44,380 nt of DNA from Thermogemmatispora sp. (lineage in GTDB: Bacteria; Chloroflexota; Ktedonobacteria; Ktedonobacterales; Ktedonobacteraceae): contig NZ_JADGHT010000003.1 in NCBI RefSeq assembly GCF_019683755.1, positions 1 through 44,380 on the forward strand. Reading direction: 5' to 3'. The translations under genes were made by a program, and so were the position numbers. Every line of letters begins with the position of its first letter. The stretch's first letter is position 1. Under the pieces are notes generated by a model. It searched no databases, had not been told where the DNA came from, and saw only the letters and a list, made by a program, of their open reading frames with translations. Of the stretch, positions 37,055 to 44,380 are shown in pieces.

Positions 37055-38164
37055 CTAGGCCTCGGGGAGCAGCGCGGAGGGATGACGCTGCAAAGCACCG
37101 CAAGACTCGCGGATCACCAGACTGGTGGGCAGGACCAGACGCGGAGCCTCCCGCGGCAACTCTTCGACTGTGGTGGGTGTGCTCTGCCGCCGGCGCCGCG
37201 GCATCTGCTCCTGCTCAATCATCTCTAGCAGCAGCTTGATAGCTTGCTCACCCATAGCATGCACTGGCTGGCGAACAGTTGTCAGGGCAGGTCGCAGGTG
37301 CGCCGAGGCCGGATTGTCGTCGAAGCCCACCAGGGCGATATCTTGAGGAATGCGCAGACCAAGCGTTTCGGCGGCTGCGATCACGCCATAGGCCATGTAA
37401 TCACTGGCGGCAAAGATCGCTGTGGGTCGCTCGCTGGCAGGCCGCGAGAGGAGGTCAAGAGCACAGCGCTGACCACCCGCCGGCATAAAGTCGCCTTCCA
37501 GAACCAGCGAGGGATCAATCTCTAAACCTGCCTCCTGGAGCGCGTCGCAGTACCCCTGGTAGCGCTCATGGGAGACACAGTACTTGAGCGGCCCCTGAAT
37601 GTGGGCAATACGCCGGTGACCAAGCTCGATCAGGTGGCGCGTGGCTTCATAGGCACCGCGTCGATTGTCTGCCCCAATCCAGGGAATCCCTTCCGGCGGC
37701 GGACTCTGATCATCTATGAGCACAACCGGGAAGCCCTGGCGCCGTAGCCTCGTCAGATGCTGACTGGACTGACCCGGAAAGACAGCCAATAGCCCTGCGG
37801 TCAGCCGCGTGGCAAGAATACGATCAATGATTTTGCCACAGTCTCGCTCGTGATTAGAGCTGCTGATGCTATAGAGCACCATTTCATAAGAGGTGCTCTC
37901 TACGACAGAGGCCACACTCAGCAGCAGTTCGGGAATTAATGGCCAGGTCAAAGCCGGCACCAGCACGCTGATGAGAGGGTTACGTCCAGCAGCTAGCCCG
38001 GCTGCGGTAATGCTGGGGACAAAGCCTTGCTCTTCAACAATGCGTAGAATACGCTCGCGCGTCGCCGGGTCAACGTCCGGCTTGTTATGGAGGACACGCG
38101 AGACGGTGGTCGTGGAGACCTTCGCCAGGCGTGCAATATCGAGTATCGTCACTTTGTGGGCCAT
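37055..38164 (-). CDS. LacI family transcriptional regulator
   Basis: A 369-residue DNA-binding regulator. The helix-turn-helix at residues 5-26 (VTILDIARLAKVSTTTVSRVL) is the LacI/GalR signature. The effector-binding domain (about 60-335) has the periplasmic-binding-protein fold, with IPWIGADNRRGAYEATRHLIELGHRRIAHI and ALVGFDDNPASAHLRPALTTV as landmarks. The effector is unknown; a glycan-derived sugar is likely given the divergent glycoside hydrolase remnant. The ATG at 38162-38164 has GGAGG about 16 nt away, a loose spacing. It probably binds the paired operators at 38439-38463, near the divergent promoter. Confidence 0.93.
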   Translation of the reverse strand: MAHKVTILDIARLAKVSTTTVSRVLHNKPDVDPATRERILRIVEEQGFVPSITAAGLAAGRNPLISVLVPALTWPLIPELLLSVASVVESTSYEMVLYSISSSNHERDCGKIIDRILATRLTAGLLAVFPGQSSQHLTRLRRQGFPVVLIDDQSPPPEGIPWIGADNRRGAYEATRHLIELGHRRIAHIQGPLKYCVSHERYQGYCDALQEAGLEIDPSLVLEGDFMPAGGQRCALDLLSRPASERPTAIFAASDYMAYGVIAAAETLGLRIPQDIALVGFDDNPASAHLRPALTTVRQPVHAMGEQAIKLLLEMIEQEQMPRRRRQSTPTTVEELPREAPRLVLPTSLVIRESCGALQRHPSALLPEA

Positions 38165-38334
38165 AGGTGTTTGCTTTTCGCCTCCGCTGCATGTGGAACA
38201 TAACTGCCTCAAGGCAGGCAGGCCGATAAAAACCTGCCTTCATGTCGTCTCTACTCTGCTTTGCTGCTCCGGGTTCCTGCTCTACTCTGTGAGAAATCAC
38301 AGGTGACCTGCTTCGGTTACCTGCTTACGAGATA

Positions 38335-38363
38335 AGTATACCGAAACGCCGGCATAAGCACAA
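38335..38363 (-). promoter_or_regulatory. Promoter of the lacI-family gene
   Basis: Minus-strand TTGTGC (38358-38363), 17-bp spacer, TATACT (38335-38340). An imperfect inverted repeat AGGTGACC/GGTTACCT (38301-38308, 38315-38322) lies just downstream of the start. Confidence 0.5.
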
Positions 38364-38403
38364 GCATCCCGACGGTTCTATCGTGCCTGCTATTGTCCCA
38401 CTC

Positions 38404-38432
38404 TTGACAATCAAAAGTCTCCTAAATATATA
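38404..38432 (+). promoter_or_regulatory. Strong divergent promoter facing the glycoside hydrolase remnant
   Basis: TTGACA (38404-38409), 17-bp spacer, TATATA (38427-38432). It is the strongest-looking promoter in the right half and points rightward, away from lacI. No intact gene follows it for more than 5 kb on that strand. Confidence 0.75.
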
Positions 38433-38438
38433 TACTTA

Positions 38439-38463
38439 CGTAAACGATTACGGTAACGGTTAC
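38439..38463. promoter_or_regulatory. Tandem LacI-type operators
   Basis: CGTAAACGATTACG (38439-38452) has the CGTAA/TTACG arms and central ACGA of LacI/GalR operators. GTAACGGTTAC (38453-38463) follows directly. They cover the start and first bases of the rightward promoter, so binding would repress it. Confidence 0.75.
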
Positions 38464-38511
38464 AAAATAGAGAGGAACCACACCCTATAAGCTGGCCGAG
38501 CCTTTTCGACC

Positions 38512-38528
38512 GCGGCCTGGCAGGCCGC
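38512..38528. repeat. GCGGCCTG inverted repeat in the decayed leader
   Basis: GCGGCCTG and CAGGCCGC around a single central base, 80 bp downstream of the promoter. It is possibly an mRNA hairpin of the lost gene. Confidence 0.45.
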
Positions 38529-38585
38529 TCTGATCAGAGTCTGGTCAAGGTCTAGGCCGTGCAGCGGCGTGATGGATCGCCGTGA

Positions 38586-38813
38586 TGGATCGCTAAGTAT
38601 CTACTGATCAATACCGATCCGCTGACAGCTTATCAAGCCAGAGTGAATGTGGCTGGAGGACCTGGGGTGCATCTGCCACGACAGGCGGTGCGCTACGTCT
38701 ACGGTGAGGACAGTACAGCCCTCAGTGTCGAGCAACTCCGTGGGGCAGCTACAAGCGCCCCATTGCTTCCGCCCTATTCGCTCACAGTGCTAGTGTACCA
38801 GCTAACATTCTGA
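38586..38813 (+). pseudogene. C-terminal remnant of a glycoside hydrolase (GH44-like)
   Basis: A frame of 75 codons with no usable start and an in-frame TGA directly upstream at 38583-38585. It reads KYLLINTDPLTAYQARVNVAG, then RYVYGEDSTA, and ends LLPPYSLTVLVYQ. The LINTDP, VNVAG and terminal PPYSLTVLV segments match the beta-sandwich tail that closes many bacterial cellulases/xyloglucanases, GH44 in particular. The catalytic domain (several hundred codons) is missing. The remnant lies 150 bp behind a strong promoter with LacI operators, so the gene was probably a regulated glycan-degrading enzyme cut down by an internal deletion. Confidence 0.6.
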
Positions 38814-39077: not shown

Positions 39078-40607
39078 TTAAGCCAAGGCTGCCTCCATGT
39101 GCTCCTGCTCGACTGCGATAGGGCGCTTAAGGACGAAGAGCATGCCGGTAGTCACCAACGTACCCGCCACGATCGACAGCAGATACTGTGGCAGATTACC
39201 CACGACGCCAGGCAGGAACATGACCCAGATGCCGCCATGCGGGACATGGAGCTGGCAGCCGAAGAAGGCCGAGAGTGCGCCCGTCACCGCCGAGCCGACC
39301 ATGATCGAAGGAATGACCCGGAAAGGATCATTGGCGGCGAAGGGAATGGCCCCCTCCGTAATGAAGGAGAGACCTAGCACCCAGGCAGCCTTACCAGCCT
39401 CGCGCTCATCGGGCGTGAAGCGATTCTTAAAGAGCAGTGTCGCCAGGGCCAACCCAAGTGGCGGGGTCATCCCGGCAGCCATCGCCGCCGCCATCGGCAG
39501 ATAAACCGGATTATGGGTATCAAGCAGCAAGCCAGTCGAGAAGGCGTACGCTGCCTTATTAACTGGACCCCCCATATCAAAGGCCATCATCAGGCCGATG
39601 ATCAATCCCAAGACCGCGGCATTGACCCCCTGCAGATCCTTCAGGCCGTTCACCAGAGCCTGATTAAGCAAGGCCACCGGCGTACCGACCACATAGAGCA
39701 TCAGAAGCCCGGTGATCAACGAGCCAAGCAGAGGCAGGATCAGCACCGGCATCAGTCCAGCCAGGTTGCTGGGTAGGCGAATGCTGCGGTTCATCCAATG
39801 TACCAGGTAGCCGGCCAGGAAACCAGCAATGATGCCGCCCAGGAAACCCGAGTTTGTGAGGCTGGCCAGAACACCGCCGATCATGCCTGGGGCGATACCA
39901 GGCCGGTCGGCGATCGAATAGGCGATGAAGCCTGAAAGGATGGGCACGAAGAGCAGGAAGCCTGCCTTAGCCCCAATGACGAAGAGCGCTGCTCCCAGCG
40001 ACTGCAGCGGCTGAGCAAGAAAACCGGTCGTTAACGTGGTCAGATTAGAGGTGTCGTAGAAGGCGATGCGGTAGCCAGCAATGGCGAAGGCCAGGGCAAT
40101 CAAGATTCCGCCTGCCACGACAAAGGGAATCATATACGAGACGCCGGTAAGCAGGTGCTTATAGGGACCACGACGAGCCTGGGCACGTGCCGCCTTGGCC
40201 TGTTGCACACGCGTCAGATAATCGCTGCTCTCGGGTGACGCCGTTTGGGTAGGGCTGCCGGCGCTACTAGCGGCGGCTCCCTGACGCGCTGCTGCCGCAG
40301 CCTCGGCGCGGGCGAGCGCCGCGCGAATGACCGCCTGCCCATCCTTAATAGCTGCGCTCGTCGAGGTCTCATAAACCGTCTTCCCGCTGAAGCGGCTCAA
40401 GTCGACCTTCGTATCGGCCGCGATGATCACCACATCGGCGGTGGTGATCTCCTCGGGAGTCAGGGTATTCTGCACCCCGACTGAACCCTGTGTCTCCACC
40501 TTGATAGTGTGGCCCAGGGCCTCGGCGCCGCGCTGAAGACCCTCAGCGGCCATAAACGTGTGGGCAATGCCTGTAGGACATGAGGTAATGGCTACAATCC
40601 GTGCCAT
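39078..40607 (-). CDS. fruA: Fructose PTS permease, EIIB-EIIC fusion
   Basis: Imports fructose and phosphorylates it to fructose 1-phosphate. The IIB domain (residues 1-100) carries the phospho-accepting Cys10 in [17 protein letters not shown]. An Ala/Ser-rich linker (about 105-160) precedes the IIC domain with about nine helices ([64 protein letters not shown]). There is no IIA, which is supplied by the fused protein upstream in the operon. The ATG at 40605-40607 has AAGGAG at 7 nt. The gap to fruK is 317 bp, so an internal promoter is possible. Confidence 0.95.
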
Positions 40608-40924
40608 ACGCAAACTCCTTTGTGTGTGCTTGCTTGGTGGGGTCGACAAAACGACGCTGCGTCATTGCTAGCGAGAACAAACACGTGCTCGCTCGCTCGC
40701 CACATAGCTCCGAGTCGCCTGCTGGCAGAGAATACCCAGCGCTGTGGTCGCAGGCGTAGGCGCCGTGGAGAGAATAGAACGGGCCGGTGGCACCGAGCAC
40801 AATCTAGCTCAGTAGACATGGTGCAGTCGGTGACCATCGCGGGTCAGGCCCTGCCGCTGACCAGCCTCCTGCACAGGCGGAGTGACCCGGACTGGAGAGG
40901 CCTCGCCCGGGGGAGCGTGCTCCG
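40608..40924. other. Gap between fruK and fruA, nothing recognised
   Basis: 317 bp. It contains a short hairpin GGTCAG/CTGACC (40842-40862) and a GCTC tandem run near 40687-40698. No promoter, operator or frame with protein character is clear. Confidence 0.45.
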
Positions 40925-41878
40925 CTACTCCTCAGCAGGCCGCGCTACAAGCGAGTAAACCTGCACGCGCTCGCTGTAGTGCTCCAATACGGACGACGGC
41001 GGTAAGGCCCCATCGAGACGCGTAATGCGCGCCAGAGCATAGGCTGTAGCCAGGCGAGCGCTGGCGGTGAGATCCAGGCCGCGCAGCTCCGCCAGCACCA
41101 GAGCGGCCACCATTGCATCTCCAGCGCCAACCGTACTCTCGACCGTTACCTCGGGCGGTACAGCGTGCAATACCTGCTCATCCTCCACGAAAAGGGCGCC
41201 CTGTTCGCCAAGGGAGACCACCACGCGACGAATATCGTGGCGCAGCAAAGAGCGAGCCGCCTGAGCCACGGCAGTGAGAGTGGTCAAAGGCTGGCCGGTC
41301 AACTGTTCCAGTTCCGCCCGATTCGGCTTCACCAAGGTTGGACCAGCCAGAATACCTTGAGCCAGCGCCTCGCCACTGGCATCGAGCACCGTCAGTCGGC
41401 CCAGCGCCTTCAGGCGCGCAATGAGTGTGGCATAGAAGGAGGCGGGTACCGCCGGCGGCAACGTACCCGCCAGCACAAACCAGCGGCAATCAGCGGCCAG
41501 CTCATCAATGGTCTGACAAAGCTTCGTCAGAGCCTCCTCCGAGGGGGCCAGGCCCGGCAAATTAATATCAGTTGTCTGTCGGCGCTCCTCATCGACAATC
41601 TTGATATCGATGCGCGTCTGGCCTGGGAGGCGTACAAAAGCATCGACGATACCACGCTCGGCAAAGAAGCGCTCAAAAAGCGTCGCATTCTCGCGACCAA
41701 GAAAGCCGGTGGCGCTCACCTGGCAGCCGCTAGCGGCCAGAAAAGCCGCCACATTAATCCCTTTACCGCCGGCCTGAAACAGCATAGTGTGGGCCCGGTG
41801 GACGTGGCCCGGCACCAGAGCGGCCACGCACACCGTCTGATCGATGGCCGGATTAAGGGTGACCGTTGCCACCTTCAT
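40925..41878 (-). CDS. fruK: 1-phosphofructokinase
   Basis: Phosphorylates fructose 1-phosphate, the PTS product, to fructose 1,6-bisphosphate with ATP. The protein has 317 residues of the PfkB ribokinase family: N-terminal VTLNPAIDQTV, substrate segment AGGKGINVA, and C-terminal ATP/catalytic motif STVGAGDAMVAALV containing the catalytic Asp. The start ATG overlaps the TGA of the upstream EIIA-HPr-EI gene as ATGA, so translation is coupled. Confidence 0.94.
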   Translation of the reverse strand: MKVATVTLNPAIDQTVCVAALVPGHVHRAHTMLFQAGGKGINVAAFLAASGCQVSATGFLGRENATLFERFFAERGIVDAFVRLPGQTRIDIKIVDEERRQTTDINLPGLAPSEEALTKLCQTIDELAADCRWFVLAGTLPPAVPASFYATLIARLKALGRLTVLDASGEALAQGILAGPTLVKPNRAELEQLTGQPLTTLTAVAQAARSLLRHDIRRVVVSLGEQGALFVEDEQVLHAVPPEVTVESTVGAGDAMVAALVLAELRGLDLTASARLATAYALARITRLDGALPPSSVLEHYSERVQVYSLVARPAEE

Positions 41879-44337
41879 AGCCCGCGTACCTCCTCCGCTG
41901 TGCGACAGCGCAGAGCCTGCTGAGCCAACTGCTGTAGCTCAGCGAGCGTGCGACTGCGAATCTGGGCCTTGATCGTGGCCAGAGCAGGGATCGCCATACT
42001 CAACTCTGAGACGCCCAGTCCAACCAGGATGGCGGCGCCCAACGGCTCACCAGCGAGGCCGCCACAGACACCAACCCACTTACCGGCGGCGCGAGCCACC
42101 TCGACCGTGCGTGCCACCATACGCAATACCGCGGGATGGAGCGCATCGGCCTGCCGTGCCAGTTGTGGATGTAAGCGATCCATTGCCAGCGTATACTGTG
42201 TCAGATCATTTGTCCCAATCGAGAAGAAATCGACCTCCGCGGCGAACTCCTCGGCCAACAGTACTGCCGAAGGTACTTCGACCATCATACCCAGCGGCAG
42301 ACGGGGCGCATTCAGCTCACGGCGGACGCGCTCGGCATACTCACGGGCCTGTGCGAAATCCTCCAGCGTCGCAATCATTGGGAACATAATGCTAATTGGG
42401 CCGCAGGCTGCCGCGCGATAGATGGCGCGAAGCTGTGTCACAAAGAGGTCGGGGTAGGCCAAACACAGACGGATGCCGCGTAAGCCCAAGAACGAAGAAT
42501 CTTCGGCGGATAATTGCAGATAGGGCACATGCTTATCGCCGCCGATATCGAGAGTACGAATAATAAGAGGACGCCCATTCAAGGCACGAGCCATCGCGCA
42601 ATAGGTCGCATACTGCTCCTCCTCCGAGGGGGGAGCGGCCCGGCCCAGAAAGAGGAACTCCGTGCGCATCAGGCCGACGCCCTCGGCGCCGGCGTCCAGG
42701 GCTTGGGGGACCTCCTCAGCGCGATTAATATTCGCCGCAATTTCCACACGGTGCCCATCGCGTGTCACCGCCGGCTGGAAGCGCTGACGCAGGGCCGCCT
42801 CCTCCCGCTGACGCAGTTGTGCCTGTAAAGCGCGAGCCTCAGCCAGATCGGCCTCACTTGGCCGCACATAGAGCCGCCCGTTGAAGCCATCGAGAATCGC
42901 CGGCGTACCATCGGCAAGCGTCAGTACAGCCTCACCGGCAGCCACCACTGCCGGAATACCCTGCGAGCGGGCGATAATAGCCGTGTGTGACGTTGGCCCA
43001 CCACGCGCCGTACATAGACCCTGGACAATATCGGGGTCCAGCGCTGCCGTATCCGAGGGAGTCAGGTCCTCGGCCACCAGAATCACCGGGCCAGCCGTAG
43101 GAAAAGCGCCCGCTGCCGCCACACCGAGCAAGTGACGAAGCACCCGCTCACCGACATCGCTCAAATCGACAGCGCGTCCCGCCAGGACCGGATCATCGAT
43201 CTGCTGGAGCTGGCTCACCCGCCGGGCAATAGCCTGCTGCCAGGCCCAGGCAGCTCCATGACCGGCGTAGATCAGGCGTACCGCCTCCTGGATCAGCTCG
43301 GCATCTTGCAGGAACTCGCGATGAGCGCGGAAGATGGCCGCCCGACTCGAACCGAGACGTGCCCGCACCTCCTCATAGAGCTGGTCTAGCTCGCGCTGCG
43401 CAACATCAAGCGCCCGTTGCAGCGCCAGCCCATCGCCAGCGGGATCGGTTGGCTGATCGAGAACTTCCAGACGCTGGCGGCGATAGCGCTGGAGCGGAGC
43501 AATGGCCAGCCCGCCGGCGGCTCCCAGACCGCTGTAAGCGGCAGCCACCGAACGTGGTGCCCAGCGCAATACTGGCACCTCAGAGGGAGCCGGATCGGAA
43601 GGAGGTAGCGGTTCCAATTCATCGCCCAGACCAGCGGCAATGGCTGCCTGCAGCGTGGCCAGAGCCTGGGCCGCATCAGGGCCTTCCGCCGAAACGCGGA
43701 TTCTGGCACCGCGCTCGGCCCCAAGCTGTAAGAGAGCAATCAAACTTTTCCCGTCGGCAACCCGCTCGCCATAGCGCACGCGGATCGCGGCCTGAAAGCC
43801 GCGGGCCAGCTCCACAAAGCGCGCCGCCGGTCGGGCGTGCAAGCCGGTACGATTTTGAATCACTGTCTCGAAAGAAGCGGAATAGTCAGCCTCCGTACTG
43901 GGAGCGGTGGGCCGTTCACCAGTAAGGGCCTCAATAATATCGCGGGGATCAGTCGTGTGGATCAGGCGCTCGACAGCGGCAGGATCGCCGAGCACACGCG
44001 TCAACCGTCGCAGTGCATCAATATGCTCATCTGAACGGGCGGCGATCGCCACCACCAGGTGGACGATCTCGCCAGGGTTCCAGGTAACACCAGCAGGTAG
44101 CTGCAAGACCGCGATGCCGGTCCGATGGATCAGCTCTTGATCGCGAGGCAAACCGTGGGGGATGGCGATACCGTTGCCAAGATAGGTATTGGCAACCTGC
44201 TCACGCTGCAGCATGCTGTCAATGTAGCCTGCCTCAATGCAGCCACTACGTACCAGGAGGTCGCCCGCCTGGCGAATGGCTCCTTGCTTGTCCTCAGCCT
44301 GCGCCTGCAGTCGGACTTGCTGTTCACTCATTTGCAT
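41875..44337 (-). CDS. Fused PTS EIIA(Fru)-HPr-Enzyme I
   Basis: A 820-residue multiphosphoryl transfer protein. EIIA (about 1-145) has His61 in IAIPHGLP. HPr (about 155-240) has His167 in NRTGLHARPAARF. Enzyme I (about 265-820) has the phosphorylated His451 in GGPTSHTAIIARSQG, the PEP-site segments IMFPMIA and GTNDLTQYTLAMDR, and VCGGLAGEPL near the end. One polypeptide therefore carries the phosphate from PEP to EIIBC. Two ATGs (44340, 44337) follow GGAGG at 5 and 8 nt; 44337 is chosen, but either is possible. It heads the operon with fruK and fruA. Confidence 0.94.
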   Translation of the reverse strand: MQMSEQQVRLQAQAEDKQGAIRQAGDLLVRSGCIEAGYIDSMLQREQVANTYLGNGIAIPHGLPRDQELIHRTGIAVLQLPAGVTWNPGEIVHLVVAIAARSDEHIDALRRLTRVLGDPAAVERLIHTTDPRDIIEALTGERPTAPSTEADYSASFETVIQNRTGLHARPAARFVELARGFQAAIRVRYGERVADGKSLIALLQLGAERGARIRVSAEGPDAAQALATLQAAIAAGLGDELEPLPPSDPAPSEVPVLRWAPRSVAAAYSGLGAAGGLAIAPLQRYRRQRLEVLDQPTDPAGDGLALQRALDVAQRELDQLYEEVRARLGSSRAAIFRAHREFLQDAELIQEAVRLIYAGHGAAWAWQQAIARRVSQLQQIDDPVLAGRAVDLSDVGERVLRHLLGVAAAGAFPTAGPVILVAEDLTPSDTAALDPDIVQGLCTARGGPTSHTAIIARSQGIPAVVAAGEAVLTLADGTPAILDGFNGRLYVRPSEADLAEARALQAQLRQREEAALRQRFQPAVTRDGHRVEIAANINRAEEVPQALDAGAEGVGLMRTEFLFLGRAAPPSEEEQYATYCAMARALNGRPLIIRTLDIGGDKHVPYLQLSAEDSSFLGLRGIRLCLAYPDLFVTQLRAIYRAAACGPISIMFPMIATLEDFAQAREYAERVRRELNAPRLPLGMMVEVPSAVLLAEEFAAEVDFFSIGTNDLTQYTLAMDRLHPQLARQADALHPAVLRMVARTVEVARAAGKWVGVCGGLAGEPLGAAILVGLGVSELSMAIPALATIKAQIRSRTLAELQQLAQQALRCRTAEEVRGL

Positions 44338-44380
44338 CATGGTTGCCTCCAGGGGTAGGAGCCAGGGCACACACTTTATC

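Follow-up and report, generated by a model that had tools for sequence, protein, structure and literature searches.

Why would a pair of LacI-type operators be kept beside a repressor gene when the promoter that they adjoin leads only to the ruined 3′ end of a glycoside hydrolase gene? The question arises in the window, by which we mean the whole 44,380-nucleotide stretch of Thermogemmatispora DNA that we analyzed (genome G000, a 537-contig assembly). An earlier note on this DNA had described a promoter with two adjoining operators facing a short hydrolase 3′ end, with repressor, operators, and 3′ end surviving and the catalytic part lost, and our analysis bears out that arrangement. The features of the locus and its neighbours are as follows.

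37055–38164, minus strand: lacI, encoding a LacI-family repressor of 369 amino acids with recognition helix STTTVSR (assigned by Pfam and by identity to congeners).
38165–38403, minus strand: lacI control region and leader, unchanged at 218 of 239 positions across six genomes and free of indels.
38335–38363, minus strand: candidate lacI promoter, TTGTGC (38363–38358), 17 bp, TATACT (38340–38335), read from the sequence in the near-invariant core.
38404–38432, plus strand: promoter that once faced the hydrolase gene (TTGACA, 17 bp, TATATA).
38440–38451, no strand: LacI-type operator 1, GTAAACGATTAC, invariant across six genomes.
38452–38463, no strand: LacI-type operator 2, GGTAACGGTTAC, two positions varying among six genomes.
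38508–38798, plus strand: pseudogene remnant, recognized by homology to a GH51-like hydrolase and a paralogue, with in-frame TAG (38553–38555) and TGA (38583–38585).
38589–38813, plus strand: final open frame within the remnant, with 74 codons and a stop.
39078–40649, minus strand: convergent neighbour, a fruA-like PTS fructose EIIBC gene (TIGR01427, E 3.7e-125).
40925–41878, minus strand: fruK-like PfkB kinase gene (domain match).

The hydrolase-side promoter comprises TTGACA (38404–38409), a 17-bp spacer, and TATATA (38427–38432), matching 10 of 12 consensus bases; its description as near-consensus holds for the –35 element but not for the –10 element, which has only four of six consensus bases. 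It was missing from our promoter-scan list because the scan rule accepts only second hexamers that end in T. Among congeners the –10 element is TATATC, TACATC, or TAGATC, and one congener has GTGACA at –35. The two operators abut, with a centre-to-centre distance of 12 bp, and would cover about +1 to +24 of a transcript from the predicted start. A 22-letter array pattern searched with zero mismatches had one match per genome in six Thermogemmatispora genomes, always at the lacI-hydrolase locus; with up to three mismatches, the same pattern gave 14 matches in the window genome versus two for a reversed control.

The gene downstream is a decaying pseudogene rather than a clean truncation. The remnant spans roughly the last 90 hydrolase codons, to 38813. 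Two related genomes encode hydrolases, each in an open frame of 520 codons, whose C-terminus aligns with the 74-codon frame (48% identity, E 1.7e-10 and 2.7e-10), which confirms the suspected similarity to glycoside hydrolases. The earlier note counted 75 surviving codons. Homology runs further 5′, to 38517 with a 515-residue homologue (residues 424–509) and to 38508 with an intact paralogue in the window genome, and the TAG and TGA codons inside that homologous stretch, absent from the earlier note, mark it as decayed.

To which family the lost enzyme belonged depends on the half considered. As a direct query the 74-residue remnant matched no Pfam family, and a PDB search gave two chance-level matches (E 0.87). 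The 515-residue homologue likewise matched no Pfam family; it scored E 1.2e-16 against the NCBIfam ArfA model, at 60.7 bits versus a cut-off of 625, and a single-sequence PDB search with it returned 16 distinct sequences up to E 0.1, all named arabinofuranosidase or arabinosidase. A three-sequence profile matched 21 PDB sequences. The same 16 arabinofuranosidases or arabinosidases aligned with the catalytic half (best E 4.5e-18), and three entries aligned with the C-terminal half, namely the GH44 domain-containing entry 7pr9 (8.3e-6), a GH79 entry (8.8e-6), and a glucuronoarabinoxylan xylanase (6.4e-5); the remaining two, antibody chains, were chance-level matches. In their catalytic half, the intact homologues thus resemble α-L-arabinofuranosidases such as 3s2c, 4atw, and 3ug3 (profile E 4.5e-18 to 6.1e-18), which we take to be GH51 enzymes, although the search output names only 1pz3 as such; the intact homologue differs from them in having no Pfam family and in a C-terminal half that matches GH44- and GH79-named entries instead. 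We conclude that the lost enzyme was GH51-like in its catalytic half, with arabinofuranosidase activity as a prediction. The GH44-like label proposed previously is rejected for the catalytic half, where arabinofuranosidases match; the resemblance to 7pr9 is confined to the C-terminal domain, and the label therefore fits only the part visible in the remnant.

The earlier note had offered a recent internal deletion or an assembly gap, and the fragmented assembly and open final 74 codons would fit an intact gene that exists, or existed until just now, in the window genome. Comparison with five congeners (G001, T. tikiterensis T81; G002, the HOG59 metagenome assembly; G003; G004, T. carboxidivorans PM5; and G005, T. 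aurantia A1-2) argues otherwise. First, the order lacI, control region, broken hydrolase, fruA is the same in all five, with the locus of G002 divided over two contigs by a break inside lacI; the intact gene sought there in related genomes proved to be a broken copy every time. Second, frameshift-tolerant alignment found stops, frameshifts, or large deletions in each of the five copies. This alignment also places weak, doubtful segments (window residues 304–390, and others in other species), and we therefore relied on lesions also visible in the other sequence comparisons. Third, the lesions fall into groups: G001 and G005 have in common a TGA at residue 72, a TAG at 106, and a frameshift at 133; the 3′ deletion junction of G002 is the same as that of G001 and G005; G003 and G004 have another deletion in common; and the window genome has lost a third, different part, with about 420 5′ codons gone. 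Because a decayed copy stands at the same place in all five congeners, the loss is neither recent nor local, and because every congener assembly, a single-contig one included, is without an intact gene at this place and two in-frame stops interrupt the remnant, an assembly gap is improbable as well. We regard a deletion or gap peculiar to the window genome as extremely unlikely. The hydrolase may already have been dead in the ancestor of all six genomes. An intact hydrolase paralogue is present in each of the six, in open frames of 729–794 codons; complete reading in G000 and G001 showed a protein of 716 residues with a CBM2 domain.

The repressor has fared differently from the hydrolase. Its product is a LacI-family protein, with both the helix-turn-helix domain (PF00356, E 5.4e-17) and the periplasmic-binding-type domain (PF13377 Peripla_BP_3, E 3.3e-40), and is 96–97% identical in the five congeners, the G002 copy covering residues 8–368 only. 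In a LacI tree, the window gene groups with those of its congeners and one gene of Dictyobacter kobayashii (support 100/99), apart from the paralogues within the genus, which are 63–67% identical to it. The helix STTTVSR of the window protein is replaced by SKATVSR in 12 of the 20 tree rows outside this genus-level clade. The near-invariance of the 239-bp lacI leader is far above the apparent need of a simple promoter; the leader matched no structured RNA in Rfam, its reading frames showed no clear coding pattern on inspection by eye, and a search for the control region on plasmids gave no match.

Rates of change separate what is kept from what is decaying. LacI is under strong purifying selection: dN/dS was 0.015–0.038 across 10 pairwise comparisons among five genomes, a set from which G002, with its split gene, was excluded. 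The hydrolase wreck drifts neutrally: its divergence was 0.108–0.514 in six of the 10 possible pairs among the five congeners, and it was no lower than lacI dS in any of the four pairs having both values (0.108 versus 0.083, 0.212 versus 0.175, 0.448 versus 0.372, and 0.514 versus 0.359). We then counted changes within clade A (G001, G005, and G002) and clade B (G003 and G004). The 24-bp operator pair had none where 10.1 were expected (P = 4.2e-5), and the lacI leader had 12 against 100.4 expected. The promoter segment had eight against 15.1 (P = 0.035) and the next 36 bp had 10 against 14.7 (P = 0.13). The operators differ between the clades at two positions. Conserved blocks flank the promoter segment on both sides, yet it changes faster than both of them, so the conservation of the operators is not a property of the region as a whole; the promoter partly erodes while the operator pair beside it is kept. 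These counts show that LacI and the operators have been under purifying selection after the death of the hydrolase, if the deletions common within each clade mark that death. The operators might instead appear conserved only for want of elapsed time, a reading that clade A alone would allow, since 35 of its 1112 24-column wreck windows are also unchanged; in clade B, however, only two of 591 windows lack a change, and with the joint probability for both clades this explanation becomes very unlikely.

We consider it likely that a divergent lacI-hydrolase pair lost its hydrolase and that continued use by LacI, in autoregulation, in trans, or both, has preserved the operators. In the ancestral state, a LacI-type repressor gene stood divergent from a GH51-like hydrolase gene with two overlapping LacI operators in its start region, and the position of these at about +1 to +24 suggests that the hydrolase was repressed, with release by a sugar assumed from the LacI family. 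In Thermogemmatispora the hydrolase died and has drifted neutrally, acquiring different large deletions in different species. The likeliest reason for the survival of repressor and operators is that LacI still binds the operator pair and controls its own gene across the conserved leader; it may also act in trans at promoters elsewhere that carry similar arrays, of which that of a GH6 cellulase gene is the closest.

How far autoregulation explains the array can be judged from other LacI genes. We examined the upstream regions of 25 (those of the window, four of the five congeners, and 20 others) and found site pairs 10–14 bp apart in nine (the window, two congeners, and six others), compared with one in 12,500 mononucleotide shuffles. 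Three further genes have a 24-bp pair (loci L032, L119, and L120), two congener loci (L023 and L025) have only one site that reaches threshold, and seven of the 25 regions have no site at threshold, one of the seven offering only 132 bp. Spacing of 12 bp, a strict value unlike the helical repeat, is seen upstream of lacI at loci L028, L029, L030, L031, L038, and L041. The pairs of the six other LacI genes lie 41–148 bp from the gene; the window array, 287–299 bp from the lacI start codon, is much farther away, and autoregulation from it is therefore not obvious. The lacI gene of D. kobayashii (L132), the nearest relative outside the genus, has no such site upstream, which counts against an old autoregulatory array.

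Similar arrays exist elsewhere. A strict search of 29 genomes of the family, in which 29 spacings were allowed, returned exactly 12-bp spacing in 25 of 34 rows, with four control matches; near-palindromic places count on both strands in this search, 18 of the 25 rows come from this genus, and the window array itself fails the strict pattern. A relaxed search of G001, the genome in which the neighbouring genes were read, gave about eleven array places. Five precede glycoside hydrolase or CBM2 genes (two GH6, GH48, GH5, and CBM2 with BNR repeats); among the others are the hydrolase locus, two places before lacI paralogues, one before a 603-codon gene, and one near transporter genes without a clear partner. 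The 12-mer of the GH6 array also occurs at a paralogous lacI. In a separate set of loci (L139:199-6940, L140, and L141), another lacI is grouped with transporter genes and with what looks, from its sequence, like a gene for a GH1-like β-glucosidase, and the 43 bp upstream of this lacI are 84% identical to the window operator region.

Because paralogous LacIs have similar sites, they could bind the operator pair. On that account a paralogous cellulose-type LacI would occupy the operators while the window LacI regulated something else, in keeping with the 63–67% identical paralogues whose own genes are preceded by like sites at 24-bp spacing (L119 and L120). The array, however, adjoins the control region of the window lacI and is conserved together with it, and we think a paralogue unlikely to be the binder; binding by the window LacI is the reading that we prefer.

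The fructose operon next door was another candidate. The window LacI could survive mainly as regulator of this PTS operon, with the operators by the dead gene kept for that circuit, and two facts speak for it: the order fruA, wreck, lacI is kept in congeners, and the operator 1 12-mer GTAATCGTTTAC, which occurs at only three to five places per genome (control, 0), lies at the fru promoter in all six genomes. At that promoter (L127:5365-5475; L146-L151) six genomes each have two LacI-type sites separated by 99 bp. The window contig breaks off where the fru operon begins (44264–44380), and another contig of the same genome (C485:6278-6599) carries the upstream part and promoter. In the two genomes read, however, a different LacI gene, with helix STATVSR, stands divergent at the fru promoter, and the fru operon therefore has a LacI gene at both ends. 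In two other genera, a comparable site adjoins a gene that looks from its sequence like this STATVSR LacI, and the fru sites are thus most simply assigned to that LacI. The separate LacI gene weakens the fructose operon as the obvious live target, and its control as the main reason for survival of the window LacI is improbable. Continued use of the pair by LacI, for its own gene or in trans, remains our preferred explanation.

What happened at this locus is ordinary gene decay with a surviving repressor; the retained operators are the unusual element. With the pair retained and the adjoining promoter eroding, the locus is a natural test of the role of operators once a target gene is gone. A more specific proposal, which is possible but which we hold only tentatively, is that the pair was orphaned by the death of its target gene and kept genus-wide as a distal autoregulatory element, and that it is one of the exactly 12-bp-spaced overlapping arrays that would mark a cellulase regulon in this Chloroflexota order and need an unusual binding mode.

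No literature on these operators in Ktedonobacteria was among the matches listed, and the closest comparisons are with systems known elsewhere. The CelR-type operator is TGGGAGCGCTCCCA; the operator here is of the GTAANCGNTTAC type, the phylum is different, and membership of the window LacI in such a regulon is putative. In actinobacteria, cellulase regulons of the CelR type, that of Thermobifida fusca included (PMC3377646), have LacI-type sites in front of genes for cellulases, for cellobiose transporters, and for the regulator itself. The similar arrays before GH6, GH48, and GH5 genes in G001 might belong to a CelR-like regulon, but any of several LacI paralogues may be what binds these arrays. 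Autoregulation is reported in 72% of the LacI/GalR-family regulators studied by Ravcheev et al., 2014 (PMC4052901). The local regulators catalogued there are like the system here in having an even palindrome with central CG and in having tandem and overlapping sites, and differ from it in that the neighbouring target here is dead. The spacing here is 12 bp, compared with a peak at 13 bp in that study, and its strictness bears on a question raised there, namely how two LacI dimers use overlapping sites.
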